Assembly: GCA_021767785.1 (NCBI GenBank)
Contig: JAASSR010000005.1
Coordinates: 1-51,333, forward strand
Direction: 5' to 3'
DNA length: 51,333 bases
Source of the DNA: Methanolobus sp.
GTDB lineage: Archaea > Halobacteriota > Methanosarcinia > Methanosarcinales > Methanosarcinaceae
The translations under genes and the position numbers were made by a program. The notes under the pieces are model-generated. The model worked only from the letters and a program-made list of their open reading frames with translations, had not been told where the DNA came from and did no database searches. Below are positions 2,173 through 17,743 of this stretch, in pieces; the stretch's first letter is position 1; each line of letters starts with the position of its first letter.

Positions 2173-3075
2173 TTATTCCTGGGTTCCAAGAACTTCATCG
2201 ATCTTCTCTGGATGTTCATCGAGCCACTTAGCAGCCGCTTCTTCGGGGGTCATTCCAGCATCGATGTCGATCATAATGGATTCAATATCAGAAAGGTCCA
2301 TTTCAAAATTCTGGATAAGCTGATTAAACTCAGGTCTGTCCTCTTCGAAACCTGTTCTTGTAAGGATTATAAGGTCATCACTTTCTCCGTAAACTCCCTG
2401 TGAATCTTCAAGGAATTTCAGACCTTCCATACGGGCAAATGTCCAGTGTGGTCTCCATAGGGTTACTACTACCCACTCTTCATTATCTATCTTGTCCTGA
2501 AGTTCAGTAGCCATTCCAACGGTACTGCTGGAGTATATCTCATATCCCTCAAGTTCGTAATCTGCAACACAGCTTTCAGTATTTTGCATGATACCGGCAC
2601 CTGGCTCGATTCCGCTGATCTGACCATTGAACTTGCTGGCATTGCCTTTAAGTTCCTCTATAGTGTCTATAGGAACGTATTCAGGAACTACAAGACCGCA
2701 TTTTGCACCTGTGGCAACAACCTGTGCCTTATTCAGGTCTTCTCCGTATTGTTCCCAGTAAGGTGCCTGGGTTGCAGGTAACCATGCATGGAATAGAACA
2801 TCTATATCCCCCTGTGCTGTTGCCTGGTAAAGACCTCCAAGATCTGCGCTAACAGTTTCGTATTCGTATCCTCCTTCATCGAGGATCTGGAAGAATACAT
2901 TTGCAGCAGCACGTGAGTCATCCCACTGTACTACTCCTATCTCTACTGGTTCCTGTGTAACTTCTTCTGTTATGTCCTCTGTTGCATTTTCTGCATCCTG
3001 TGTAGTACAACCTGAAATGATCAGGGTACTTGCTACTATTAGACATATTAATATCTTTAAAAGCTTGGATCTCAA
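2173..3075 (-). CDS. Glycine betaine/proline-type ABC transporter substrate-binding protein (copy 1), lipoprotein
   Basis: Lipobox 'LIISGCTT', OpuAC/ProX-like motifs 'HAWLPATQAPYWEQYG', 'GIEPGAGIM', 'WVVVTLWRPHWTF'. Confidence 0.88.
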   Translation of the reverse strand: MRSKLLKILICLIVASTLIISGCTTQDAENATEDITEEVTQEPVEIGVVQWDDSRAAANVFFQILDEGGYEYETVSADLGGLYQATAQGDIDVLFHAWLPATQAPYWEQYGEDLNKAQVVATGAKCGLVVPEYVPIDTIEELKGNASKFNGQISGIEPGAGIMQNTESCVADYELEGYEIYSSSTVGMATELQDKIDNEEWVVVTLWRPHWTFARMEGLKFLEDSQGVYGESDDLIILTRTGFEEDRPEFNQLIQNFEMDLSDIESIMIDIDAGMTPEEAAAKWLDEHPEKIDEVLGTQE

Positions 3076-3155
3076 ATTATCACCTCTAATATTTGTACTA
3101 ATGATAGGTTAGTTAATTAAAAAAAAGAAATAGGGATGAAATAAGGATAATTTCC

Positions 3156-4052
3156 TTATGCAGCATCGCCTATCCATTCATTTACCTTTTCAGGATTTGC
3201 ATCTACCCACTTTTGAGCAGCTTCTTCTTCTGGAACACCATCTGCAAGGTCTGCCATTACAGACTGGATGTCATCATGTGTCCACTCAAATCTGCTGATT
3301 ATTCCATAGAGTTCAGGCTTATCTTCCTGAAGTCCCTGTCTTGCCAGGGTTTCAACGTGGTCTGCTTCACCATAGACTCCCTGTGGGTCATCAAGATATT
3401 TCAGATCGAATTTATTGAATGTCCAGTGTGGTGTCCATAGTGTTACAACGGTCCACTCTTCATCTTCAATTGAACTCTGAAGGGAAGCTGCCATACCTGC
3501 ACTGCTGCTTGCTACAAGCTCATAATCCAGACCATATTCATCTATGGCAGTTTCTGTTGTAGACATGATTCCGGCTCCAGGGTCGATACCAATGATCTCA
3601 CCATTGAACTGTTCCTTATTTTCATTGAGTTCTTCAATTGAATCAATGTCCACGTATGTTGGAACCACAAGTCCTATACGACAGTCTTCAAGATTTACTG
3701 CTACACTGTCTATCTGGTCGCCATACTGTTCCCAATAGTTCTTCTGGGTCTTCGGAAGCCATGCGGAAGTTGTAAAGTCGAACTGGCTGTCGGCAAGACC
3801 CTGGTAGAGAGCACCTGCATCTACAGCTATTATTTCTACATCATAACCTGCCTGCTCAAGGACAAGTTTCATGACATTGGTACTGGCTATCTCGCCATCC
3901 CAGAGAACATAGCCGATACTTGCTTCCTTTGTTACGGTCGCTTCATCTGTTCCATTATTATCTCCGGTTGTGTCCTGATCAGTACATCCGCTTACCATGA
4001 CAAGCATGGCAAGCATTATAAGTACTGAAAAAAACTTGATTTTTTCTTTCAT
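3156..4052 (-). CDS. Glycine betaine/proline-type ABC transporter substrate-binding protein (copy 2), lipoprotein
   Basis: Paralogue of preceding ORF: 'TSAWLPKTQKNYWEQYG', 'GIDPGAGIM', 'WTVVTLWTPHWTF'; lipobox 'VMVSGCTD'. Confidence 0.88.
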   Translation of the reverse strand: MKEKIKFFSVLIMLAMLVMVSGCTDQDTTGDNNGTDEATVTKEASIGYVLWDGEIASTNVMKLVLEQAGYDVEIIAVDAGALYQGLADSQFDFTTSAWLPKTQKNYWEQYGDQIDSVAVNLEDCRIGLVVPTYVDIDSIEELNENKEQFNGEIIGIDPGAGIMSTTETAIDEYGLDYELVASSSAGMAASLQSSIEDEEWTVVTLWTPHWTFNKFDLKYLDDPQGVYGEADHVETLARQGLQEDKPELYGIISRFEWTHDDIQSVMADLADGVPEEEAAQKWVDANPEKVNEWIGDAA

Positions 4053-4129
4053 TTTATCACTACTCTAAATATCACTATACTGAGTATTCATTGAAAGCCC
4101 ATTTGGGCTGTAAGGTTTAATAAGTTTTA

Positions 4130-4960
4130 TTATTTTGGTGTAAGATTCTGCGTGAGCCTGTCAAGTACAATTGCAATTATCACAATTCCAAGACCTGCTT
4201 CAAATCCCTGTCCTATGTCTACTCTCTGAATACCTACAAGCACCTGATATCCAAGTCCTCTTGCACCGATCATGGCCGCAATTACAACCATGGATAATGA
4301 GAGCATTATACACTGGTTCACACCTGCCATTATTGTAGGAAGTGCTACTGGCAGTTCTACTTTAAACAGTTTTTGCAGCGGAGTTGTACCAAATGCAGTT
4401 GCCACTTCATTTAATTCCACTGGTACCTGGCGTATACCAAGGTTAGTAAGACGTATGGCAGGCGGCATTGCAAACACGATGGTTGCAACAAGTCCGGGGA
4501 CATTTCCCAGTCCGAAAAAAATAACTGCGGGAATAAGATATACAAAAGAAGGCATTGTCTGCATAAAGTCAAGTATTGGTTTGACCACATGGAAGATCGT
4601 TTCATTCTTTGCAGCCAGAATTCCCACAGGAATACCCACCATAAGAGCCACAAGTGCAGATGCTAACACCAGGGCAATAGTTTCCATTGAAAGGCTCCAT
4701 AGCCTCATGTTATCAATTAATAGAAATCCTATTGCAGTTCCGATTGCAAGTGTCAGGTTCTTTCTGGATACAAGGTAGACTAATACGGTAATTAAGACAA
4801 TAAATGCAATAGGCGGCAAAAACATTAGTATATCTTTAAATCCGGATATAAGAAAATCAATGAAAGTACTGAATATATCCATCAAAAAACCGAAATAATC
4901 ATTCAACCAGTAAACACCTGATTCAACAGCTTCACCTACAGGTATTTCAGGTAACAGCAT
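4130..4960 (-). CDS. Glycine betaine ABC transporter permease (ProW/OpuAB-type)
   Basis: Multi-TM protein with 'LDFMQTMPSFVYLIPAVIFFGLGNVPG...PPAIRLTNLGIRQVP' and 'MVVIAAMIGARGLGYQVLVGIQ'. Confidence 0.9.
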   Translation of the reverse strand: MLLPEIPVGEAVESGVYWLNDYFGFLMDIFSTFIDFLISGFKDILMFLPPIAFIVLITVLVYLVSRKNLTLAIGTAIGFLLIDNMRLWSLSMETIALVLASALVALMVGIPVGILAAKNETIFHVVKPILDFMQTMPSFVYLIPAVIFFGLGNVPGLVATIVFAMPPAIRLTNLGIRQVPVELNEVATAFGTTPLQKLFKVELPVALPTIMAGVNQCIMLSLSMVVIAAMIGARGLGYQVLVGIQRVDIGQGFEAGLGIVIIAIVLDRLTQNLTPK

Positions 4961-4961
4961 T

Positions 4962-6155
4962 TTAATCCTCCTCCTTCATCGCCAGGGCACCAAGTATGCT
5001 ACCTCTGACTATTACTCCTAAGAGCTTTTTATTATCATCAACAACAGCTTTTGGTAAAGCGTTCTCTGCCATAATGGGTATTATTTCATTTATAGGCATA
5101 TCAGGAGCTATCATAGGAATATCTGTTATCATTACATCCTTGATCTTCTTCTTTTCCTTAGCTGCCTGAGCAGCATCATCAACACACAACATACCCTTTA
5201 TTTTCTTATCAGGATCCACTACGAATATGGATGATATCCCATGTTTTTTCATAAGTTGCAGTGCAACTGTGATCTCTGCGTTGATGGATACGACCGGATC
5301 AGGACGCTTCATGACATTATCTGCAGTAAGTATTTTTGTCCTGTCAACACCGGCAACGAATTCTGATACATAGTCATCTGCCGGTTTTGTCAAAATTTCC
5401 TCTGCAGTTCCTATCTGGGATATCATTCCATCTTTCATGATAGCTATACGATCTCCCAGTTTAAGGGCTTCATCCAGATCATGGGATACAAAAACAATTG
5501 TTTTTTTGAGTTTGTCCTGAAGTGCGATCAATTCATCCTGCATTTCGGATCTTATTAAAGGGTCAAGTGCACTGAAAGCTTCATCCATTAGCATTATATC
5601 AGGATCTGTGGCAAGTGCACGTGCAAGTCCTACTCTTTGTTGCATTCCACCACTTAACTGTGATGTTTTACTTGATTCATGACCTTTCAGGCCCACTTTT
5701 GCAATAGCTTCCTCAGCTTTAGCATACCTTTCATTTTTTGGTACACCTTGTATCTCAAGTCCGAAAGCAACGTTATCTATAACAGTTCTGTGAGGAAGCA
5801 GAGCAAAGCTCTGGAAAACCATACTCATCTTCTTTCTTCTGGCTTCTGTTAGTTCCTTATCTGTCATGGTGGCAATATCATCTCCATCAATGAGGATATG
5901 CCCATCACTGGGTTCTATAAGGCGGTTCAGACAGCGTAAAAGAGTTGATTTTCCCGAACCAGAGAGTCCCATAAGTACAAAAGTCTCACCTTCATAAACA
6001 TCAAAATTAACATTATAGAGACCGACTGTTTGCTTTGTTCTTTCAAAAACTTCCTGTTTTGAAACCCCTTGCTCAATTAAAGAAATTGCTTTTTGAGGCT
6101 TCTTGCCAAACACTTTAGCAAGGTTGCGTACTTCTATTTTTTTTGTTCTGCTAAT
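4962..6155 (-). CDS. Glycine betaine ABC transporter ATP-binding protein with C-terminal CBS domains (ProV/OpuAA-type); the ORF track starts at GTG 6113 but the conserved N-terminus extends to ~6155
   Basis: Walker A GLSGSGKST, signature LSGGMQQRVGLARA, Walker B DIMLMDEAFSALDP; C-terminal CBS pair; upstream in-frame codons encode ...KKIEVRNLAKVFGKKP. Confidence 0.88.
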   Translation of the reverse strand: MSRTKKIEVRNLAKVFGKKPQKAISLIEQGVSKQEVFERTKQTVGLYNVNFDVYEGETFVLMGLSGSGKSTLLRCLNRLIEPSDGHILIDGDDIATMTDKELTEARRKKMSMVFQSFALLPHRTVIDNVAFGLEIQGVPKNERYAKAEEAIAKVGLKGHESSKTSQLSGGMQQRVGLARALATDPDIMLMDEAFSALDPLIRSEMQDELIALQDKLKKTIVFVSHDLDEALKLGDRIAIMKDGMISQIGTAEEILTKPADDYVSEFVAGVDRTKILTADNVMKRPDPVVSINAEITVALQLMKKHGISSIFVVDPDKKIKGMLCVDDAAQAAKEKKKIKDVMITDIPMIAPDMPINEIIPIMAENALPKAVVDDNKKLLGVIVRGSILGALAMKEED

Positions 6156-7061: not shown

Positions 7062-8705
7062 TTATCTGAACCACTTATTGTAGCGCTTGTTTGAATTCTT
7101 ATCATTCAAAGCATCGATGGCTTCCTGTGGAATGTAGAACTTATCATCTTCACTGAGTTCTTCATTTCCATCGCTCATGGGAGCTGCTACAACAATACCT
7201 TCAAGATCATACTCAGTATCGTCGATCCTGAGAATGTCCTTGCTTACAGGAAGTTCAGCAACCACTTTGCCATTGTCTATGACAATAACCGGGTTCTTGT
7301 CATCTGATGTATCCAGTGACCATTCGTCTTTTTCGAAAGCATCGTTTATCTCTACGAACAGCTCTTCACCTACTTCTTCAAGCTCGAAGCCGAATGCATC
7401 AGCAACACAGGTTGCAATTTCGGTGTTGTCAAGAAGTCCGGTTGGTTTTTCAGGTCCGTATGCCCAGAGAGGTACATCTCCGCCTGTATGTCCGCCTGTG
7501 GTCCATCCGATCTCTACTGTTCCTTCCCCACCTTTAAGAGGGTTCACGAGCTCTTCGACTGTAAGGTCAGTATAAGATGTGTCGTAGTTTCCTATTGCCA
7601 TTCCGCCTGTATTGTGGTCAGGGAATACAATAACCAATGTGTGTCCATCCTCTTCTGCGAAATCTACAGCTACCTCTACAGCTTCATCGAATGCAAGAAA
7701 GTCAGTGACCATGTATTCAGGGTCATTTGCATGTCCTGCCCAGTCAACCTGGCTACCCTCAACCATAAGGAAGAATCCGTCTTTGTCCTGTGAGAGAAGT
7801 TCTATTGCTTTGTCTGTCATCTCTGAGATTGATGGCTCTTCAGTTCCTTCACGTCCCAGTTCTGAGTTCATGTGGCTCGATGCGAACATTCCCCATGCTT
7901 TACCTGATTCGAGTTCTTTCATTTCATCTGCTGTGGTTACGTACTGATAGCCCTCTTCAAGAAGAACTTCTGTGAGATTTTCACCATCTGTACGCTTGCC
8001 TCCGTCCTCTTCTGTAAGGAGGTGACGTTCTGCTCCGCCAAATACAACATCAATATCCTGGTATACCATGTGCTCCATTATCTCATTATCCATTCCTCTG
8101 TCATGGATATGAGCTGCATAGGCAGCAGGTGTTGCATGGGTTATACGGGATGTTGCAATAAGACCTGTTGCTTTACCTTCCAGCTTTGCTCCTTCAAGTA
8201 CAGTTGCCATTGGTGCGTAAGGTTCAGCCATTTCATCTTCATCAAGGGTTGTGAGCAGGTCTTCGGTCCTTGGTCCTACCCCAACGAACCTTACAGTGGT
8301 CTTCTCACCGGTTGCAAAAGCTGTTGCTGCTGCAGCAGATCCGGTTATAACAGAGTTTGCCATGTATGTTGAAACCATTCCGGTTACCATGCTGTCAAGC
8401 TGGAGCTCTTCTCCACTGTACCAGCGTGCAAGGGTCTGGATATCCTGATCGCATCCGTCTGGTACCATTACAATAACATTTTTGATCTTCTGTTTTGATT
8501 TATCGCTGTATTTGTAATCATCATCTTCCCAGCCGTACATGTAGTCATCATCGTGCCATCCATATACGTTATCGTCGTCTTCATCATTCCACTTGTTTGT
8601 AGTTTTACCTGCCAGAGCGGAAGCAGCGCTTCCCAGGACAAGCATCCCTACTACAATAAAAGCAAAAAATAATTTTGTTCTTTTCTCAATCATACTATCA
8701 TCCAA
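7062..8705 (-). CDS. Secreted alkaline phosphatase (PhoA family) with Asp-rich N-terminal repeats
   Basis: Catalytic 'NSVITGSAAAATAFATGEKT', 'MVEGSQVDWAGHANDP', 'VVFPDHNTGGM', 'TTGGHTGGDVPLWAYGP'; N-terminal hydrophobic signal. Confidence 0.9.
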   Translation of the reverse strand: MDDSMIEKRTKLFFAFIVVGMLVLGSAASALAGKTTNKWNDEDDDNVYGWHDDDYMYGWEDDDYKYSDKSKQKIKNVIVMVPDGCDQDIQTLARWYSGEELQLDSMVTGMVSTYMANSVITGSAAAATAFATGEKTTVRFVGVGPRTEDLLTTLDEDEMAEPYAPMATVLEGAKLEGKATGLIATSRITHATPAAYAAHIHDRGMDNEIMEHMVYQDIDVVFGGAERHLLTEEDGGKRTDGENLTEVLLEEGYQYVTTADEMKELESGKAWGMFASSHMNSELGREGTEEPSISEMTDKAIELLSQDKDGFFLMVEGSQVDWAGHANDPEYMVTDFLAFDEAVEVAVDFAEEDGHTLVIVFPDHNTGGMAIGNYDTSYTDLTVEELVNPLKGGEGTVEIGWTTGGHTGGDVPLWAYGPEKPTGLLDNTEIATCVADAFGFELEEVGEELFVEINDAFEKDEWSLDTSDDKNPVIVIDNGKVVAELPVSKDILRIDDTEYDLEGIVVAAPMSDGNEELSEDDKFYIPQEAIDALNDKNSNKRYNKWFR

Positions 8706-8896: not shown

Positions 8897-9682
8897 TCAT
8901 TTCTTGTTATTATTTCTGATATTACTGTAGTACATACATTCATCCCTGCTGAACAATGGCATTTCTATATCATCTTCTGCTATCTGAACAGGTGCACCTC
9001 TGATAAGCACGGCAGGCACGCTTTCTCCGGCTTCCCCCATCAGTAACTGGGAGGCAGAAACAAGATTGTCAGCTACAGCTTTTCGGGTAATTGTCATTTC
9101 CTTTCCAAAAAGATCAAGAGTTCCTCTGGCATCTTCCACAGGTACCATTCCGGAAGTTCCAAGTGCAATTCCAACACAGCCAAGACGCAGGGGTTGTGTA
9201 CGACTGTCACCAACAATAACCCCTATTTTACATTTGCAGTGTTCTTTTATTTCCCTGCGGATCCTGCCGGCACTCTCCTGAGAATTTTCCGGAAGAAGAA
9301 CAACATGACCTTCAGGTGCGTTCGAGCTATCAATACCGGCATTAGGTGCCAGTGTACCTTTTGTGATAGTAAGTGCTGCTCCCGGTACTCCACCGAATAT
9401 CTCATCACATTCCTGAAGTATCAGTTCCATTTCTCTCGGGTCAAGCAGGTACTCATCTGCCAGTTTTTTTGCTTTATCACAGGGATTGATATCATCAAGA
9501 CGAACAAGGCGCCCCTCGGCTGTTGCAAGCGGTGATTCTGCGATTATGAGGATATCGTTGTCCTGTAATTGCATCCCCTGTTCCTCCAGGGAATCGATAA
9601 GGATCCTGGAGATGCTGTCACCCGGTTTTATGGTCGGTGTTCTTATTCCAAACATTTGCAAGGACGGGAAATATGCCTGCAT
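8897..9682 (-). CDS. CofE-family (F420-0:gamma-glutamyl ligase-like, COG1478) protein in the folate operon
   Basis: 'GIRTPTIKPGDSISRILIDSLEEQ', 'CKIGVIVGDSRTQPLRLGCVGIALGTSGMVPVEDARGTLDLFGKEMTITRKAVADNLVSASQLLMGEAGESVPAVLIRG'; start ATG overlaps the upstream gene's stop (TAATG). Confidence 0.8.
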   Translation of the reverse strand: MQAYFPSLQMFGIRTPTIKPGDSISRILIDSLEEQGMQLQDNDILIIAESPLATAEGRLVRLDDINPCDKAKKLADEYLLDPREMELILQECDEIFGGVPGAALTITKGTLAPNAGIDSSNAPEGHVVLLPENSQESAGRIRREIKEHCKCKIGVIVGDSRTQPLRLGCVGIALGTSGMVPVEDARGTLDLFGKEMTITRKAVADNLVSASQLLMGEAGESVPAVLIRGAPVQIAEDDIEMPLFSRDECMYYSNIRNNNKK

Positions 9683-10929
9683 TAATCCTCCTCTGTAAGG
9701 TAAGTTTTCATGATCTTTATAGCACAGTAATCTCCGCACATTGAGCATGGTCCTTCTTCAGGACACATCTGAGACGGTCTGTCAGGATCAATTGCAATCT
9801 CAGCCTGTCCTTTCCAGTCAAAAGCAGCTCTTTTTGTGGCAAGCAGAAGATCACTTTCATCCAAACCGTATTTCATGGAATCTCCTATATGTGCTGCTAT
9901 CCTGAATGCAATAAGTCCTTCCCGGACCTGCTGAGGATCCGGCAGAGAAAGATGTTCTGCAGGTGTTATGTAACATAGATAATCCACACCTGCTCCGCTT
10001 GCCATACTGGCACCCACAGCTCCTGCAATATGATCGTACCCGACAGCAATATCAGTCGGAAGAGGACCAGCTACAAAAAGCGGGAAATCAGCCACATCTT
10101 TGTACATCTTTACAGAATCCGGTATCTCAGATGCCCGGATATGACCGCCCATGCCATTAATGATCACCTGTACGCCCATACCGTTTGCTCTTTTTGCAAG
10201 GGAAGCGTTTGTTTCTATTTCCATAAGCTGTGCACCGTCTTTCAGGTCATGAACACAGCCGCTTCTCATAGTGTTACCAAGAGAAAGTACAACGTCGTTT
10301 TCTCTTAGTATCCTTATTATTTCATCAAAATGTTCTATGAAAGGATTTTCGCAAGCGTTGAGAAGCATGAAACTGCTGGTGAATGATCCACCCTTGGACA
10401 CCATACCCATTACCCTGCCGGTTCCTTTAAGTTTTTCAAGCATTTTCCTTTCAACACAATGAATGAGTATCGAACTGACCCCCTCTTCAACATGTATTTT
10501 CAGATAGGTAAGGATGTCATCAAAGGTGACATTATCCATTCCACATTCGACAATCGTCTGGTAAATGGGAACAGTTGTAACCGGAAGTTCAGTGTTCTCA
10601 AATACGGTCTTTCTGATGGATGAGATATCTCCTCCCATGGATAGATCTGTGATGGTTGCAGCACCATATTTCTGTGCGATTTTCACTTTCTCTATCTCTG
10701 AATCAGTATCAATTGAAGCCGATGATGTGCCAAGGTTCACGTTGATCTTGGTGCTTGCTCCTTTTCCAATTGCAACAGGAGGACACCCTTTACGTGTCAT
10801 TATGACAAGACTGCCATTTGCTACTCTTTCCCTGACAAGTTCTTCTTTAATTCCCTCTTTTTTTGCGACTTCAAGCATCTCAGGTGTGATACTGCCACTT
10901 TTTGCATGATCGATCTGCGTTTTCAGCAT
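9682..10929 (-). CDS. ThiC-family radical SAM protein (diverged paralogue)
   Basis: ThiC-like fold signatures 'VAIGKGASTKINVNLGTSS', 'VSKGGSF', 'GPLPTDIAVGYDHIAGAVGASMASGAGVDYLCYITPAEHLSLP', C-terminal Cys cluster CSMCGDYC. Confidence 0.85.
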   Translation of the reverse strand: MLKTQIDHAKSGSITPEMLEVAKKEGIKEELVRERVANGSLVIMTRKGCPPVAIGKGASTKINVNLGTSSASIDTDSEIEKVKIAQKYGAATITDLSMGGDISSIRKTVFENTELPVTTVPIYQTIVECGMDNVTFDDILTYLKIHVEEGVSSILIHCVERKMLEKLKGTGRVMGMVSKGGSFTSSFMLLNACENPFIEHFDEIIRILRENDVVLSLGNTMRSGCVHDLKDGAQLMEIETNASLAKRANGMGVQVIINGMGGHIRASEIPDSVKMYKDVADFPLFVAGPLPTDIAVGYDHIAGAVGASMASGAGVDYLCYITPAEHLSLPDPQQVREGLIAFRIAAHIGDSMKYGLDESDLLLATKRAAFDWKGQAEIAIDPDRPSQMCPEEGPCSMCGDYCAIKIMKTYLTEED

Positions 10930-11810
10930 TGGTCTTTCTTCCTGATATCGGCCATTTCAAGTATTTTTGGTATATTATTATGTTTTCCGATTGGCATCAT
11001 ATGAGTTCCCCGACAGAGCTTCTTTAGTTCGGTAATGGTTTGTGCACAAACGGACATGCCCTCATCAAGAGGTTTTTCTGTATTTTCCATTGTATCTATT
11101 ATATCATCAGGCACATTGATACCCGGAATATTCCGGTTCATGAAACGTGCCATTTTTGCAGACTTCAGCGGGATAACTCCTGCAATAACCGGGACTTCAA
11201 TATCACTGATAGATTCCATAAAAACTTCGAATTTGCCGATGTCATAAACAGCCTGGGTCTGGATAAAATCAATTCCTGTTTTCGCTTTTTTTCGCAGTTT
11301 CATCATCTGTGCACTCTTTGATTGATCTATGTTGCTAACAGCACCAACTAGAAAATCAGGTGGATTGTCTATCCTGTTGCCTGCAAGGTCATAACCTTTC
11401 TTTATTTTCTTTATAATTGAAAGAAGCTGCACGGAGTCCAGATCATAAACCGGTTTTGTCTTCGGATGGTCTCCTTTTGTGGTATGGTCTCCTGTCATGA
11501 CACAGATATTCCTGATCCCCATTGCATAGGCTCCCAGGAGGTCGGACTGAAGTGCAAGCCTATTCCTGTCCCTGCAGGTAAGCTGCATGATCACTTCATG
11601 CCCTGCGTCAAGTAAAGTTCTGCTTACTGCAAGAGGACTCATACGCATAACAGCTCTCTGGTTGTCGGTGACATTCAGTGCGTCAACCAATTCTCTGATA
11701 TGCTCTGCATCTTCAATGACTTCTTTCAGATCAGTTCCTTTGGGTGGACTGATCTCTGAGGTTATCAGAAAATCTTTTGATTTGAGTTTATCTTTGAAGG
11801 TTAGGGACAT
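10923..11810 (-). CDS. metF: 5,10-methylenetetrahydrofolate reductase
   Basis: 'ITSEISPPKGTDLKEVIEDAEHIRELVDALNVTDNQRA...ICVMTGDHTTKGDHPKTKPVYDLDSVQLL...FIQTQAVYD' typical of MetF. Confidence 0.88.
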   Translation of the reverse strand: MSLTFKDKLKSKDFLITSEISPPKGTDLKEVIEDAEHIRELVDALNVTDNQRAVMRMSPLAVSRTLLDAGHEVIMQLTCRDRNRLALQSDLLGAYAMGIRNICVMTGDHTTKGDHPKTKPVYDLDSVQLLSIIKKIKKGYDLAGNRIDNPPDFLVGAVSNIDQSKSAQMMKLRKKAKTGIDFIQTQAVYDIGKFEVFMESISDIEVPVIAGVIPLKSAKMARFMNRNIPGINVPDDIIDTMENTEKPLDEGMSVCAQTITELKKLCRGTHMMPIGKHNNIPKILEMADIRKKDQC

Positions 11811-11922: not shown

Positions 11923-12534
11923 TCATTCACTTAGTTCTTCCACTGTCCATACCTTTTCAAGAAGGTCAAGTCTTCCCTTCTTTTCCATTTTGTTGAATAT
12001 TAATTCCCATGCACAGTCCTTTTCAGGATCAACTTCACATTTTCCTTCAACAGCTCCTCCGCAGGGACCGTTCAAAAGCCGCTTCGGGCATTGTCCCTTT
12101 GGACATATACCGCCAAAATAATATATTTTGCAATCTCCGCACATGGCACAGAGTTCAGGTATCACTTCTCCCTGTGAACGTCCGCCAAGCGATTCGGTAT
12201 TATTGGAGGGATAAACAGGCACATCAACTATACCTGAAATTATAGAAACCCCGCTTCCACATGCCATTACAAGAATAGTCTTTGCATCATTTATGGCAGT
12301 ATTCTTTTCAACAAGTGAATCAAAGGATGCAACACTACAGGCAGCACTCGGGATGACCCATCCGACTATATTCTTCCCCTCGTCCTCAAGACGCTTGCAC
12401 ATTTCAAGGACTTCAGGCTCACCTCCCACATGCAATTTAGCAGCACATGCATTACACCCAACAACAAAGATGTCATCTTTGTCTTTCAGTAGTTCAATAA
12501 CTTCTTCAAAGGGTTTTGCAGATGAGATTATCAT
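11923..12534 (-). CDS. metV: Methylenetetrahydrofolate reductase C-terminal-domain protein (MetV-like, zinc/Cys-rich)
   Basis: Cys-rich 'CAMCGDCKIYYFGGICPKGQCPKRLLNGPCGGAVEGKCEVDPEKDCAWELIF' and position next to metF. Confidence 0.82.
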   Translation of the reverse strand: MIISSAKPFEEVIELLKDKDDIFVVGCNACAAKLHVGGEPEVLEMCKRLEDEGKNIVGWVIPSAACSVASFDSLVEKNTAINDAKTILVMACGSGVSIISGIVDVPVYPSNNTESLGGRSQGEVIPELCAMCGDCKIYYFGGICPKGQCPKRLLNGPCGGAVEGKCEVDPEKDCAWELIFNKMEKKGRLDLLEKVWTVEELSE

Positions 12535-13766
12535 AGTTCCCTCTGGTAACGATGCTTCACATCCATGTCATTTTCAAGAGTTTCAGCTATCATCTCTGCA
12601 ATGAGTGGAAGGTTCCGTGCCTGATATGCGAGCTTATGTACCAGTTTTTCGAATTGCAGCAGAGTACCGATAATTAGCACATCGGTCTTTTCAGTTTCGT
12701 GTGACACTGCATCACGCTCAAGGGCTGCATCGCCGCCCCTTGCAAGTATCTCCTGTTTGATTATCAGAGCTTCGGTGGTGCTGATATTGTTCACTCGTAT
12801 AACCTTGCTCACGGTCTTCTTTTTCATGACCTTTGCACCGGTGTCTGTAACATTCATACTTTTCATTAAATATTCAGCATCATCCGGATGGGTAATGTCT
12901 ATGAGGCTGACTTCAGAATCTCTGGATCTTACGGAAGAATCTCGTTTTCTGATTGCATTTGCAACTTCTACAACGTCTTTAGTCTCCGGAATATCATGTG
13001 TCCTTATTATGTGAGCACCTTTATGGACCACTAGTGCCGTTGCAGCAAGACTTCCGTATAGTCTTTCACTTGCAGGCTTGTGCAGCACTGCATCAATGCA
13101 TGATTTTCTTGATATGGCTGCAAGAAGTGGTTTACCAAAGACTTTCAGGCTCTCGAACTGGTCAATAGTCTCAAAATCAAATACAGGGTCTTTTTCAGGG
13201 GTCCATTTTCCTATTGCAGGATCAAGTATCAGTTTGTCTGCATCTATTTCCTTTGCTTCAACCCTGTCAATAATATTTGCCAGAGATCTCATGATCGCAT
13301 CCATGCCGATGGGGTCTCCGGGAATTTTCTCAGATGCCATGACTACAGCAGGACAATCATAGTCCGCCATTATATCGATCATTTGAGGGTTGGTAGTAAA
13401 TCCGGATACATCATTGATTATGTCTGCACCATGTTTCAGGGATTCTTCTGCAACGTTGGAATAAACCGTATCTACGGAAATAAGTGCATCCACGTTGTCA
13501 TTCAGAATGTCCAGTGCAGGGATCATGCGAGCAAGTTCTTCTTCCTTATTGATAACCGGTTTTGCAAGTGGCCATGTGGAACGTGCACCGATATCAATTA
13601 TGGCTGCGCCATCATCACTCATCTTTTGTGCCACATCAAGAAGAGAATCGTTATCTACAACAGAGCCTTTGTAAAAGGATTCTTTGCTGAGGTTGATGAC
13701 ACCCATAAGTCTTACAGGATGTTCATCACCAACTTTCAAGCCGCAAATGTCTACATCAATAACCAT
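12531..13766 (-). CDS. folP: Dihydropteroate synthase with extra C-terminal domain
   Basis: 'LMGVINLSKESFYKGS', 'DDGAAIIDIGARSTWP', 'INDVSGFTTNP', 'KLILDPAIGKW', 'AISRKSCID', 'HIIRTHDI'; 4-nt overlap with metV. Confidence 0.85.
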   Translation of the reverse strand: MVIDVDICGLKVGDEHPVRLMGVINLSKESFYKGSVVDNDSLLDVAQKMSDDGAAIIDIGARSTWPLAKPVINKEEELARMIPALDILNDNVDALISVDTVYSNVAEESLKHGADIINDVSGFTTNPQMIDIMADYDCPAVVMASEKIPGDPIGMDAIMRSLANIIDRVEAKEIDADKLILDPAIGKWTPEKDPVFDFETIDQFESLKVFGKPLLAAISRKSCIDAVLHKPASERLYGSLAATALVVHKGAHIIRTHDIPETKDVVEVANAIRKRDSSVRSRDSEVSLIDITHPDDAEYLMKSMNVTDTGAKVMKKKTVSKVIRVNNISTTEALIIKQEILARGGDAALERDAVSHETEKTDVLIIGTLLQFEKLVHKLAYQARNLPLIAEMIAETLENDMDVKHRYQREL

Positions 13767-13853: not shown

Positions 13854-14714
13854 TCAGTTGTCCTTAGCTGCCATAAGCACATGTTCCATTAGAATTGCTA
13901 TGGTCATGGGACCTACTCCACCCGGGACAGGAGTGATAAGTGATGCTTTCCTCACAACATTGTCGTAATCAACGTCACCGTAGACTTTCCCTTCTTCCTC
14001 GGTGATACCTACGTCAAAGATAACCGCACCCTCCTTTATCATGTCTGCTTTGATCAGGTGTTTCACACCGGTCCCAACTACAAGGATATCAGCTTCCATG
14101 GTGAACTTTTTCAGGTCATCGGTGAAAACGTGACACACGGAAACCGTTGCATTTCTGTTTATAAGCATTGCAGCCATAGGCTTTCCAACAACATTGCTGT
14201 GTCCGACAACGACTGCATGTTTTCCCTGAACATCAACATCGTATTCTTCCAGTGCCCTGATAACACCTTTTGGGGTACATGGTACAAGCCCCTCATCGCC
14301 TATCAGGAGCTTTCCCATATTGTACGGATGGAATCCGTCTGCATCCTTTTCAGGGTCAATGGCAAGCATTGCGGCTTTGTCATCCAGATGTTCTGGCAGT
14401 GGCAGCTGGAGGAGGATTCCATGTATGTCTTTTCTTGAGTTGAGTTCCCGGATGCGCTGCATGAGTTCTTCCTGTGTGGTGGGTTCGGGCATGTAGTGGT
14501 CCTCTGCGTGGATGCCTACCCTGTCACATGCCTTGTGTTTGAGGCGTACATACAGTTTTGAAGCAGGATCCTCGCCTACAAGTATGGTTGCAAGTCCAGG
14601 TGTGATTCCCTTTTCAGCCTTAAGCTCGTCAACTCCCTGCTTTACCTTTTCTTCCACTTTCTTTGAAAGCTTTCTGCCATCTATTTTCCTGGAATCGTAG
14701 TTCTCTTCTGCCAT
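13854..14714 (-). CDS. folD: Bifunctional methylenetetrahydrofolate dehydrogenase/cyclohydrolase
   Basis: '[14 protein letters not shown]', '[14 protein letters not shown]', '[14 protein letters not shown]', '[13 protein letters not shown]', '[21 protein letters not shown]'. Confidence 0.95.
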
Positions 14715-14757: not shown

Positions 14758-15993
14758 TTATTTGTAGACTGGAAATCCGCTGCACAGCTGCTCAATATCT
14801 GAGTTTACGCTATTAAGGACCGCATCGTTATCGAGATTGTTAATAACATCTGTAATGTATCCTGCGATCTCCTTCATCTGTTCTTCCTTCATTCCTCTTG
14901 TTGTTGCAGCAGGGGTACCGATCCTTATTCCGCTTGTGATGAAAGGACTTCTTGTTTCGAATGGGATGGTGTTCTTGTTAAGTACGATGCCTGCCCTGCT
15001 CATTGCAGCTTCTGCGTCTTTTCCTGTGATATCGAATTTGTTAAGGTTAAGGAGCATGACATGGTTATCAGTACCGCCGGAAACAATGTCAAACTCTCTG
15101 TTTTGAAGTTCTTTTGCAAGTACTCCTGCATTTTTCACTGTCTGGAACTGGTCTGACTTGAACTTTTCACCCATTGCTTCCTTGAATGCAACAGCTTTTG
15201 CTGCTATTACATGCATCAGAGGTCCGCCCTGAATTCCGGGGAAAACTGATCTGTTCAGGTCCTTTGCAAGTTCTTCTTTGCACATTACCATTCCTCCCCT
15301 TGGTCCTCTGAGTGTTTTGTGAGTTGTGGTTGTAACAAAATCAGCGTAAGGTACCGGGCTTGGATGTGCACCTGCGGCTACAAGACCTGCAATATGTGCT
15401 ATATCAGCTAACAGATAAGCACCCACTTCATCTGCAATATCCCTGAATGCTTTAAAATCAAGAGTTTTGGAGTATGCTGAAGCACCACAAACGATCATCT
15501 GTGGTTTGTTCTCCATTGCCATTTCCATGAGTGCATCGTAGTCAAGAGCTTCTGTCTCTTTGTCAACGCCATATGGTACTATATTATAGAGTTGTCCTGC
15601 AAAATTTACAGGGCTTCCGTGTGAAAGGTGTCCTCCGTGTGTGAGATCCATTGACATGATGGTATCTCCGGGTTCAAGGACTGAGAAATAACATGCCATA
15701 TTGGCACCGGAACCTGAGTGTGGCTGCACGTTTATATGTTCTGCACCAAAGATCTCCTTTGCCCTTTCAATGGCCAGATCCTCTGCAACGTCCACATATT
15801 CGCAACCTCCATAGTACCGTTTTCCTGAATATCCTTCTGCGTATTTGTTTGTCATGACAGAGCCCTGTGCTTCCATTACGGCACGGCTTACATAGTTCTC
15901 TGATGCTATCAGGTTCAGTTTGTAATCCTGACGATTTGCCTCAAGCCTTAAGGCCTCTGCAATATCCGGGTCTATTTCTGAAATGTAAGACAT
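14758..15993 (-). CDS. glyA: Serine hydroxymethyltransferase
   Basis: '[40 protein letters not shown]', PLP motif '[18 protein letters not shown]'; ATG 15993 preferred start. Confidence 0.96.
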
Positions 15994-16066
15994 TGTTATC
16001 AACCATTAATTCGATATCAGTAGCTGTTATGTCCCTGGTGGTCAGGGTATTATTGGTTAGTATGGG

Positions 16067-16678
16067 TTAATTTCTGTGTACTACAATCCGACCTTCCACT
16101 TTAAGCTTACCCTCAACGAATAATTTGACTGCTTCAGGGAAGATCCTGTGTTCCTGTTCAAGTATACGGTTTGCAAGGGTTTCAACCGTGTCATCCTCAA
16201 GTACAGGTACACATTTCTGTATAATTATGGGGCCTGTATCCATCCCTTCGTCTACGAAATGGACTGTACATCCACTGACCTTCACTCCGTAATCAAAAGC
16301 CTGCTGTTGTGCGTGAAGTCCTTTAAAAGAAGGAAGCAGTGCGGGATGGATGTTTATTATCCTGTTGCGATATGATTTAATTAGATCTTTCCCGATAAGA
16401 CGCATATAACCCGCAAGAAGAACCAGGTCAACATCATTGTCCTCAAGAACTTTCATTATCTCATTCTCATATTCCTTTTTACCAGGATGATCGGAAGGAT
16501 CTATGAATACATCGCAAATACCATGATTTCTGGCACGTTCAAGTGCATAGGCATCTCCAACATCGCTGATAACGACAGAAATCTTTGCATCCTGAATGTA
16601 GCGGTTCTCTATATTATCTATTATTGACTGGAGATTCGAACCTCTTCCTGAAACAAGTACTGCGATGTTAGTTGTCAT
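16067..16678 (-). CDS. purN: Phosphoribosylglycinamide formyltransferase
   Basis: 'IAVLVSGRGSNLQSIID', 'LVLLAGYMRLIGKDLIKSYRNRIINIHPALLPSFKGLHAQQQAFDYGVKVSGCTVHFVDEGMDTGPII'. Confidence 0.95.
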   Translation of the reverse strand: MTTNIAVLVSGRGSNLQSIIDNIENRYIQDAKISVVISDVGDAYALERARNHGICDVFIDPSDHPGKKEYENEIMKVLEDNDVDLVLLAGYMRLIGKDLIKSYRNRIINIHPALLPSFKGLHAQQQAFDYGVKVSGCTVHFVDEGMDTGPIIIQKCVPVLEDDTVETLANRILEQEHRIFPEAVKLFVEGKLKVEGRIVVHRN

Positions 16679-16771
16679 TGTAGGTTCTAAAAGATATATC
16701 TGTATATTAGCGTTTTGATTTACTGCATGCACAGCTAATATAAATGTACTCTGTTTATAAGAAGAAGCACA

Positions 16772-17743
16772 TCAAATATTGATATTATGTTTTTTTGTTC
16801 TCTCTTCGATGAGCTCTGCAAGCTCCTCGGTTCCTGAGAGTTTGTCAAGTTCGTTCTTTTCGATAAGGACAGTGTTCTCAACAGTTTCTGACCTTAGCTG
16901 GCCGCCTTTTATGATATATACTGATTTTGTCCTTGTAACGCATGATATGCTGCTCATCAGATCTGCACGTTTTATCATTGCACTACTGTAGGTACTCACA
17001 CCTGTTAATAGTGTATCGGATGTATCCCTGGATATGGCCTTGAATGGTGCCTGACTTGTAGACATCACCTGATAACCCAGGGTGTATAGCATGCTCAGGA
17101 TTCCATCATCAGGTTGTATTTGAGGTATTTTTTCCTGAGAATTTTTTGCATTTGTCTCTTTCTCAAAACAATGAAGAATATCAATTGATTTAGCAATGGC
17201 AACGTCCAGAAGATCCTCCAGATGGAGAACGATCTCTATTGAGGCATCCATCCCTCCTTCTTCGTATTTACTTATGGTTCTTCTGGAGACGCCAAGTTCA
17301 TTTGCAAGTGTTCCCAGTGACATCTCGGTCCTTTTGCGTGCTTCTTTAAGGACATGTCCGTCTATTGAAACATAAAGTCCTCCGGGTGCAGCCGATACAA
17401 GAGGTGGTATATTTTCGACAAAATAATCATAAAGGGTCTGTACACTGACAGCAGGAATATCATAACGCATATACACTACGCTGTCCTCAAGCATCTGATC
17501 CCTTGTTTTTGCTCCGATGAGGATTGCTGTCCCTTCGAGATAACGAGCAAGACTTTTCATCTCTCTTGCGGTTTCCTCATTCAGTCCGTCAATATTGTAC
17601 AATACTTTACAAAAGATAAGCGTATCGTTTTTCCTTGCTGCAAGGTCAAAGCTCCTTGGTCTTATATTGCAACGTTTTGATACCATGAAGCCTGCTTGCT
17701 GTAATACATCAATGATCTGATGCACCAGTATCTCTTTTGTCAT
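16772..17743 (-). CDS. Archaeal HTH (XRE-type) transcriptional regulator, COG1395-like
   Basis: Central HTH 'LKEARKRTEMSLGTLANELGVSRRTISKYEEGGMDASIEIVLHLEDLLD' with archaeal N-terminal domain 'RSFDLAARKNDTLIFCKVLYNIDG'. Confidence 0.8.
   Translation of the reverse strand: MTKEILVHQIIDVLQQAGFMVSKRCNIRPRSFDLAARKNDTLIFCKVLYNIDGLNEETAREMKSLARYLEGTAILIGAKTRDQMLEDSVVYMRYDIPAVSVQTLYDYFVENIPPLVSAAPGGLYVSIDGHVLKEARKRTEMSLGTLANELGVSRRTISKYEEGGMDASIEIVLHLEDLLDVAIAKSIDILHCFEKETNAKNSQEKIPQIQPDDGILSMLYTLGYQVMSTSQAPFKAISRDTSDTLLTGVSTYSSAMIKRADLMSSISCVTRTKSVYIIKGGQLRSETVENTVLIEKNELDKLSGTEELAELIEERTKKHNINI

Follow-up and report, generated by a model that had tools for sequence, protein, structure and literature searches.

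A diverged ThiC paralogue in the tetrahydrofolate operon of Methanolobus as a candidate gene for p-aminobenzoate supply

The folate operon and its ThiC-like gene

The window, i.e. the whole stretch of 51,333 nucleotides from Methanolobus sp. that was analysed, contains a run of genes on one strand in the order purN-glyA-folD-folP-metV-metF-thiC3-cofE-like, in which ThiC3 designates a diverged member of the ThiC family. Together with a regulator gene the run comprises the following features:

8897-9682, minus strand: CofE-like gamma-glutamyl ligase paralogue (FolC2-type); read from the ATG of TAATG it has 261 aa (PF01996)
9682-10929, minus strand: ThiC3, diverged ThiC-family radical-SAM protein of 415 aa (open reading frame, PF01964, own clade, AlphaFold model)
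10923-11810, minus strand: MetF, methylene-tetrahydrofolate reductase (PF02219)
11923-12534, minus strand: MetV, zinc-finger partner of MetF (PF12225)
12531-13766, minus strand: FolP, dihydropteroate synthase, the step using p-aminobenzoate (pABA) (TIGR01496, 212 bits, above the cut-off; SRKS and RTHD motifs kept)
13854-14714, minus strand: FolD (profile matches)
14758-16002, minus strand: GlyA, serine hydroxymethyltransferase (profile match)
16067-16732, minus strand: PurN, GAR formyltransferase (profile match)
16772-17743, minus strand: HTH regulator upstream of purN (PF01381)

As pointed out in an earlier note on this DNA, thiC3 overlaps metF by 7 nt and has TAATG in common with the cofE-like gene; both readings were confirmed, the overlap being ATGCTGA. 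Since the stop codon of thiC3 lies within TAATG, the cofE-like gene likely starts at position 9682. The HTH regulator heads the operon in several genera and was detected in the same place in L163, L165, L181 and L182. According to PMC9012536, MetF, MetV, FolP, FolD, GlyA and PurN constitute the known tetrahydrofolate (H4F) biosynthetic cluster of the Methanosarcinaceae (see also Buchenau & Thauer 2004), which is the operon housing ThiC3. A search for ThiC in that article gave no match, and no description of the ThiC3 clade, or of ThiC3 as a part of the H4F cluster, was found in the literature searched.

The cofE-like gene product passes the NCBIfam F420 CofE model, yet it goes together with FolP and is absent where FolP is absent, and a probable true CofE (36% identity) is encoded elsewhere (G000:C119:5504-6190). 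Judging from these sequence comparisons this paralogue probably acts as a gamma-glutamyl ligase on folate and carries the name CofE wrongly. Its consideration as a specific partner of ThiC3 was rejected, as it accompanies FolP with or without ThiC3. At its C-terminus the window FolP is extended by about 140 aa, a feature also present in Methanotrichaceae and in families f11, f17 and f21; the FolP matches in Methanomicrobiales end after the DHPS domain. Past the folate operon (2173-6113 and 7062-8705) we detected genes for an alkaline phosphatase-like protein and a glycine-betaine ABC transporter-like set (two binding proteins, permease, ATPase), the latter recurring beside the operon in Methanolobus.

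The assignment of the open reading frame at 9682-10929 to the ThiC family, from which the earlier note had started, proved correct, since ThiC3 is homologous to PF01964 over its whole length (499.5 bits, positions 1-419 of 420 in the profile search). It passes the NCBIfam ThiC model PRK13352 (500.6 bits, cut-off 410), but with 423.2 bits it stays below the cut-off of 460 of the ThiC equivalog model TIGR00190. A score of 378.2 bits against the TIGR04386 cut-off of 700 places it outside BzaA/BzaB, which are ThiC paralogues with a different product, as presumed for ThiC3. The best PDB match of the AlphaFold model (pLDDT 94.4) is Arabidopsis ThiC 4s26, a complex of the enzyme with a ribonucleotide and SAH (TM 0.94 on the query, 1.8 Å rmsd, 36% identity). 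The closest named match of ThiC3 is found in Methanolobus profundi (90%), and the window genome accordingly falls with Methanolobus.

ThiC paralogues and the substrate site

The genome encodes three ThiC paralogues, namely ThiC3, a canonical ThiC (L001) with the motifs SLGDGMRPG, VEGPGHVP and TDIAPGYDH, and a BzaF-like protein (ThiC2, L002) with the motifs STGNGMRAG, VEGPGHVP and SDIGAGRDH. The second, canonical ThiC that the earlier note had considered informative is thus present. In a quick tree of 149 sequences (LG+G4, SH-aLRT support, without a characterised BzaF as anchor) ThiC3 forms a clade of its own with 68 rows and support 100, which lies outside canonical ThiC and bears on the phylogenetic question raised in the earlier note. 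ThiC2 including L002 falls into another clade apart from ThiC3 (27 rows, support 100), and L001 is located among canonical ThiC, whose euryarchaeal set comprises 31 rows (support 99). The ThiC3 clade has members in Methanosarcinales, Methanomicrobiales, Methanocellales and Methanotrichaceae and in one Altiarchaeales genome. Among the genomes examined in detail none carries ThiC3 as its sole ThiC.

ThiC2 (L002:1498-2787) combines N228S with D383N (Arabidopsis ThiC numbering, as throughout) and is present in nearly all these genomes; on the basis of its sequence it is likely the archaeal BzaF, making 5-hydroxybenzimidazole for factor III. In a Methanimicrococcus-like genome (G050) ThiC2 is the only remaining ThiC, which agrees with the reported inability of this group to make thiamine de novo and its complete cobamide pathways. 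A frameshift splits ThiC3 in the Methanoculleus genome G156 (L178:7001-8219; L078 is apparently the same contig) and may represent either recent decay or a sequencing error.

The motifs SLGNTMRSG, IINGMGGHIR, TDIAVGYDH and CSMCGDYC are all present in ThiC3 as the earlier note had stated, which regarded each of them as an alteration. This holds for the first two. CX2CX3C, however, is a feature of practically all short-form ThiC proteins in the alignment, among them the canonical one encoded in this genome, and Nitrospirota, Halanaerobacter and other bacteria and archaea have TDIAVGYDH in their canonical ThiC; both being ordinary, they were rejected as marks of a changed function. Of the rewriting noticed in the EGPGH motif, the loss of the proline and the extra residue apply clade-wide, whereas the replacement of E422 by N is confined to Methanolobus (14/68 ThiC3 sequences), the other 54 having retained E. 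The earlier note had named two outcomes as speaking against a changed function: of these, ThiC3 being the only ThiC does not apply, and normality of the motifs applies to only two of the four.

According to the ThiC annotation rule M257, Y286, H322, the SRG and DGLR motifs and Y449 are contact sites of ThiC. The corresponding positions in the window and the two motifs discussed above are:

10648-10650, minus strand: T94, equivalent of substrate contact M257; T/S in 67/68 ThiC3 and C in one, M in all canonical ThiC and ThiC2
10393-10395, minus strand: K179, at the place of R343 (SRG substrate motif); 67/68 ThiC3 have K, canonical ThiC and ThiC2 have R throughout
10273-10275, minus strand: N219, equivalent of D383; 68/68 ThiC3 and 27/27 ThiC2 have N, 52/52 canonical ThiC have D
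10141-10158, minus strand: N258-H263, a loop that reads NGMGGH where EGPGH is usual; longer by one residue, proline lost, metal-ligand histidine kept
10075-10077, minus strand: F285, at the place of substrate contact Y449; 67/68 ThiC3 have F, canonical ThiC and ThiC2 have Y throughout
9724-9747, minus strand: CSMCGDYC, CX2CX3C [4Fe-4S] motif, ordinary for short-form ThiC (alignment, sequence reading)

With T, K, N, N and F at the positions of M257, R343, D383, E422 and Y449 the window protein departs from the canonical contact set. In the alignment P424 is replaced by G in 68/68 ThiC3 sequences and one residue is inserted, resulting in the loop EGxGGH. Retained are N228, Y286, H322, S342, G344, R386, the three cysteines, and H426 and H490 as ligands of the metal. 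None of the 68 sequences deviates in the cysteines, metal histidines or ribose contacts; in the window protein the cysteines and metal histidines are those of CX2CX3C, H263 and H326.

Compared with ThiC (TIGR00190; AtThiC 4S26-4S28, CcThiC 3EPN), ThiC3 has the same fold, CX2CXnC cluster, metal histidines, N228, Y286, H322, S342 and R386, but differs by D383N, R343K, Y449F, M257T/S, P424G, the inserted residue, its separate clade and a context of folate rather than thiamine genes. With BzaF, for which ThiC2 is the candidate archaeal orthologue, it shares the ThiC fold and the change of D383 to N; unlike ThiC2, which has S at position 228, it keeps N228. The EGxGGH loop, SKG and F449 are further differences, as is the separate clade. 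Taking into account the kept cysteines and metal ligands, the changed contacts and the fit of the model to 4s26, the catalytic machinery appears to be retained and the substrate pocket rebuilt. In AtThiC, D383 forms a hydrogen bond with N3 of 5-aminoimidazole ribonucleotide (AIR); the D383A variant gives no HMP-P and D383N is partly active, while E413Q and E422Q use up AIR and yield no HMP-P (PMC11117688).

Gene neighbourhoods and distribution of ThiC3

A folate or one-carbon gene lies within 6 kb in 30/70 ThiC3 loci; the gene is unlinked in 40/70. The linkage occurs in independent lineages, including f11, f21 and Altiarchaeales. Linked loci were detected in Methanolobus, in Methanococcoides-like G055, Methanosalsum G102, Methanohalobium G061 and Methanohalophilus-like G064, and in families f2, f3 and f5 (Methanoperedens). 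The gene order is GlyA-FolD-ThiC3-PurH-FolP-CofE2 in G153 (f21), ThiC3-PurH-FolP-CofE2 in G137 (f11) and GlyA-FolD-ThiC3-two genes-PurN in the Altiarchaeales locus L069. A stand-alone AICARFT domain of PurH is encoded between ThiC3 and FolP (L157:6035-6976, L160:6043-6978) and thereby adjoins ThiC3, for which the purine intermediate AIR is a possible substrate. In Methanosarcina, Methanomethylovorans, Methanomicrobiales, Methanocellales and Methanotrichaceae ThiC3 is located outside any folate operon, so that the association described in the earlier note extends to several lineages and not to these solo loci.

A version of the operon without ThiC3, in which the cofE-like gene comes next after MetF, exists in M. 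barkeri MS, M. thermophila TM-1, M. hollandica (tentative species names) and a Methanimicrococcus-like genome. In M. acetivorans and the M. mazei-like genome G110 a DUF1638 gene fills the slot between MetF and the cofE-like gene (L181:9075-9887, L180:8032-8844); its product was rejected as a pABA transporter, as no sign of a transporter was found. M. acetivorans encodes ThiC3 outside the folate operon, at G103:C1:316986-318218; we take G103 to be strain C2A of this species, and the species names given to genome handles are likewise tentative.

Within the order ThiC3 was found in 92/133 genomes and is absent from 41 (at least 58% identity, counted by hand). All nine FolP-negative genomes of the order lack ThiC3 (9/9); since eight of them form one clade, this corresponds to about two independent events. 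Family f4 is devoid of ThiC3, FolP and the cofE-like paralogue in all 8 genomes, matching the lack of H4F genes reported for ANME-2c in PMC9012536. ThiC3 is also absent from genera g3, g4 and g5, from 22/26 genomes of g11, from 2/5 of g9 and from a few fragmented genomes. The genus g11 is presumably Methanosarcina, partly according to named matches.

In the phylum as a whole, genera of Methanomicrobiales and Methanotrichaceae show a patchy occurrence of ThiC3, and the search revealed none in haloarchaea, Archaeoglobi or ANME-1 (group names inferred, partly from gene content). FolP was present in all 63 methanogen genomes tested in the phylum. Many methanogens possess FolP and lack ThiC3, among them M. 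marisnigri, M. soehngenii and most Methanosarcina (tentative species names). The patchy loss inside genera is the pattern of a gene for a scavengeable compound. As ThiC3 is lacking in these FolP-containing methanogens and also in ANME-2c and Archaeoglobi, whose methanopterin needs pABA, it cannot be the sole archaeal source of pABA.

Supply of p-aminobenzoate and the presumed role of ThiC3

FolP depends on pABA, and so does RFAP synthase for methanopterin. The latter enzyme is present in the window genome. The same metabolic gap as by ThiC3 would be filled by PabA/PabB/PabC, which belong to an unrelated enzyme family. No protein above the PabB cut-off was found in the methanogens tested. The ThiC3 genomes tested encode at most one full-length chorismate-binding enzyme each, which where checked was the archaeal TrpE (PIAGT motif, TIGR01820). 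The haloarchaea, for which PabABC has been proposed (PMC8305020), possess three or four chorismate-binding copies that likewise stay below the PabB cut-off, so that the copy number rather than the cut-off is informative. An exchange of ThiC3 for PabB was rejected: two chorismate enzymes of full length occur in a single genome of the order, G045, and both are of the TrpE type. They belong to two anthranilate synthase sets that differ in type, and one set lies in a trp operon (L185:978-2969, L184:1128-2810). No match to PabB/TrpE-type models was found in the Methanomicrobiales genomes G211, G366, G401, G256, G414, G297 and G306, of which G256 and G414 carry ThiC3; according to their gene content these organisms may be tryptophan auxotrophs.

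M. thermophila TM-1 reportedly requires pABA, and in Methanococcus maripaludis dehydroquinate is said to be the branch point of the pABA route. For Methanococcus a new pathway in common with that of the aromatic amino acids has been reported (Porat et al. 2006). A dependence on folic acid or pABA is reported for M. barkeri (Buchenau & Thauer 2004, as cited in PMC9012536), and Methanohalophilus strains, where reported, need no growth factors or biotin alone (PMC6491703). ThiC3 was detected in 8/8 genomes of the genus matching Methanohalophilus; the coincidence of its presence there with its absence from pABA-dependent M. barkeri concerns few species, partly different strains and tentative names. 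The active-site motifs of FolP are alike in ThiC3-positive and ThiC3-negative species, suggesting that pABA itself is likely the aryl substrate in both; a different aryl substrate in ThiC3-positive species was rejected for the same reason. RFAP as the substrate of ThiC3 would be circular, since RFAP is made from pABA.

ThiC3 is very probably not simply the thiamine enzyme, and a role in the supply of a folate or pterin cofactor seems likely. Its divergence and its link to folate are well supported. Evident at the sequence level are the separate clade, the altered contacts, the canonical ThiC in the same genome, the folate-operon context in several lineages and the absence of PabB. Regarding its product we favour pABA or a direct precursor, with a probability of roughly 0.45. 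ThiC3 would then be a neofunctionalised ThiC. As a [4Fe-4S] radical-SAM enzyme it would still bind the 5'-phosphate of a ribonucleotide, for which AIR supplied by purine synthesis is the most likely choice, and rearrange this substrate to a product that is not HMP-P. It would supply the aryl part of folate; the adjacent FolP would join the pABA to the pterin, the CofE-like ligase would glutamylate the product, and the same pABA may also feed RFAP synthase and thus methanopterin. In its full form, a chorismate-independent pABA synthase acting on AIR and serving class II methanogens and ANME archaea in the synthesis of both folate and methanopterin, this proposal is tentative. We know of no precedent for AIR-to-pABA chemistry. 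The conversion would need seven contiguous carbons, i.e. imidazole C4-C5 and all ribose carbons, with loss of two nitrogens. The earlier note had proposed that ThiC3 does not make HMP-P and may provide an aryl precursor; the canonical ThiC, the own clade, the changed contacts and the folate linkage agree with this, and the aryl product is what we infer from them.

The clade-specific contact changes and the folate context would also suit the formation of another ring or fragment, such as an aryl or heterocyclic group for a pterin cofactor, or a lower ligand of cobamides different from 5-hydroxybenzimidazole, and the solo genes of Methanomicrobiales and Methanotrichaceae point in the same direction. 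We regard this as a possible but rather doubtful reading, given that the FolP motifs do not vary with ThiC3, that the patchy loss fits a scavengeable compound and that no cobamide genes were recognised beside ThiC3.

That ThiC3 is a second HMP-P synthase, perhaps for other conditions, is improbable. The PRK13352 assignment and the partial activity of AtThiC D383N would be in line with it, but the TIGR00190 score is too low (423 vs 460), five or more contact positions are changed, and a canonical ThiC accompanies ThiC3 in the same genome, ThiC3 never being the sole ThiC in the genomes examined in detail. No TPP riboswitch was found at the ThiC3 operon, and none near the other ThiC copies tested, including upstream of the canonical copy.

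The formation of 5-hydroxybenzimidazole from AIR by BzaF (PMC11117688) provides a family precedent for ThiC3 as a BzaF-type synthase of the cobamide lower ligand, and D383N is common to ThiC3 and the ThiC2 clade. This function is nevertheless quite improbable, since ThiC2 is the better candidate, occurring in nearly all these genomes and being the only ThiC left in G050, and since ThiC3 lacks the ThiC2 signatures N228S and P387A, sits with folate genes and falls outside the BzaF-like clade (support 100 each, in the tree without a characterised BzaF). A non-catalytic regulator or scaffold of the folate/one-carbon operon, to which the many catalytic-site changes might point, is highly improbable in view of the strict conservation of cysteines, metal histidines and ribose contacts in 68 sequences and the persistence of ThiC3 as a solo gene outside the operon.

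Returning to ThiC3 as a putative source of pABA, we place it in a known family as a variant with a new function and do not regard it as a family of its own. Since PRK13352 passes the ThiC3 clade, the thiamine annotation of its members is probably wrong in many methanogen genomes, even if the product is not pABA. For the supply of the p-aminobenzoate ring in methanogens and ANME archaea ThiC3 is a concrete candidate gene, which is also present in a genetically tractable species, M. acetivorans. If the proposal is true, it would explain the pABA requirement of some Methanosarcina, and pABA synthesis would be the third ring-building reaction of the ThiC family.
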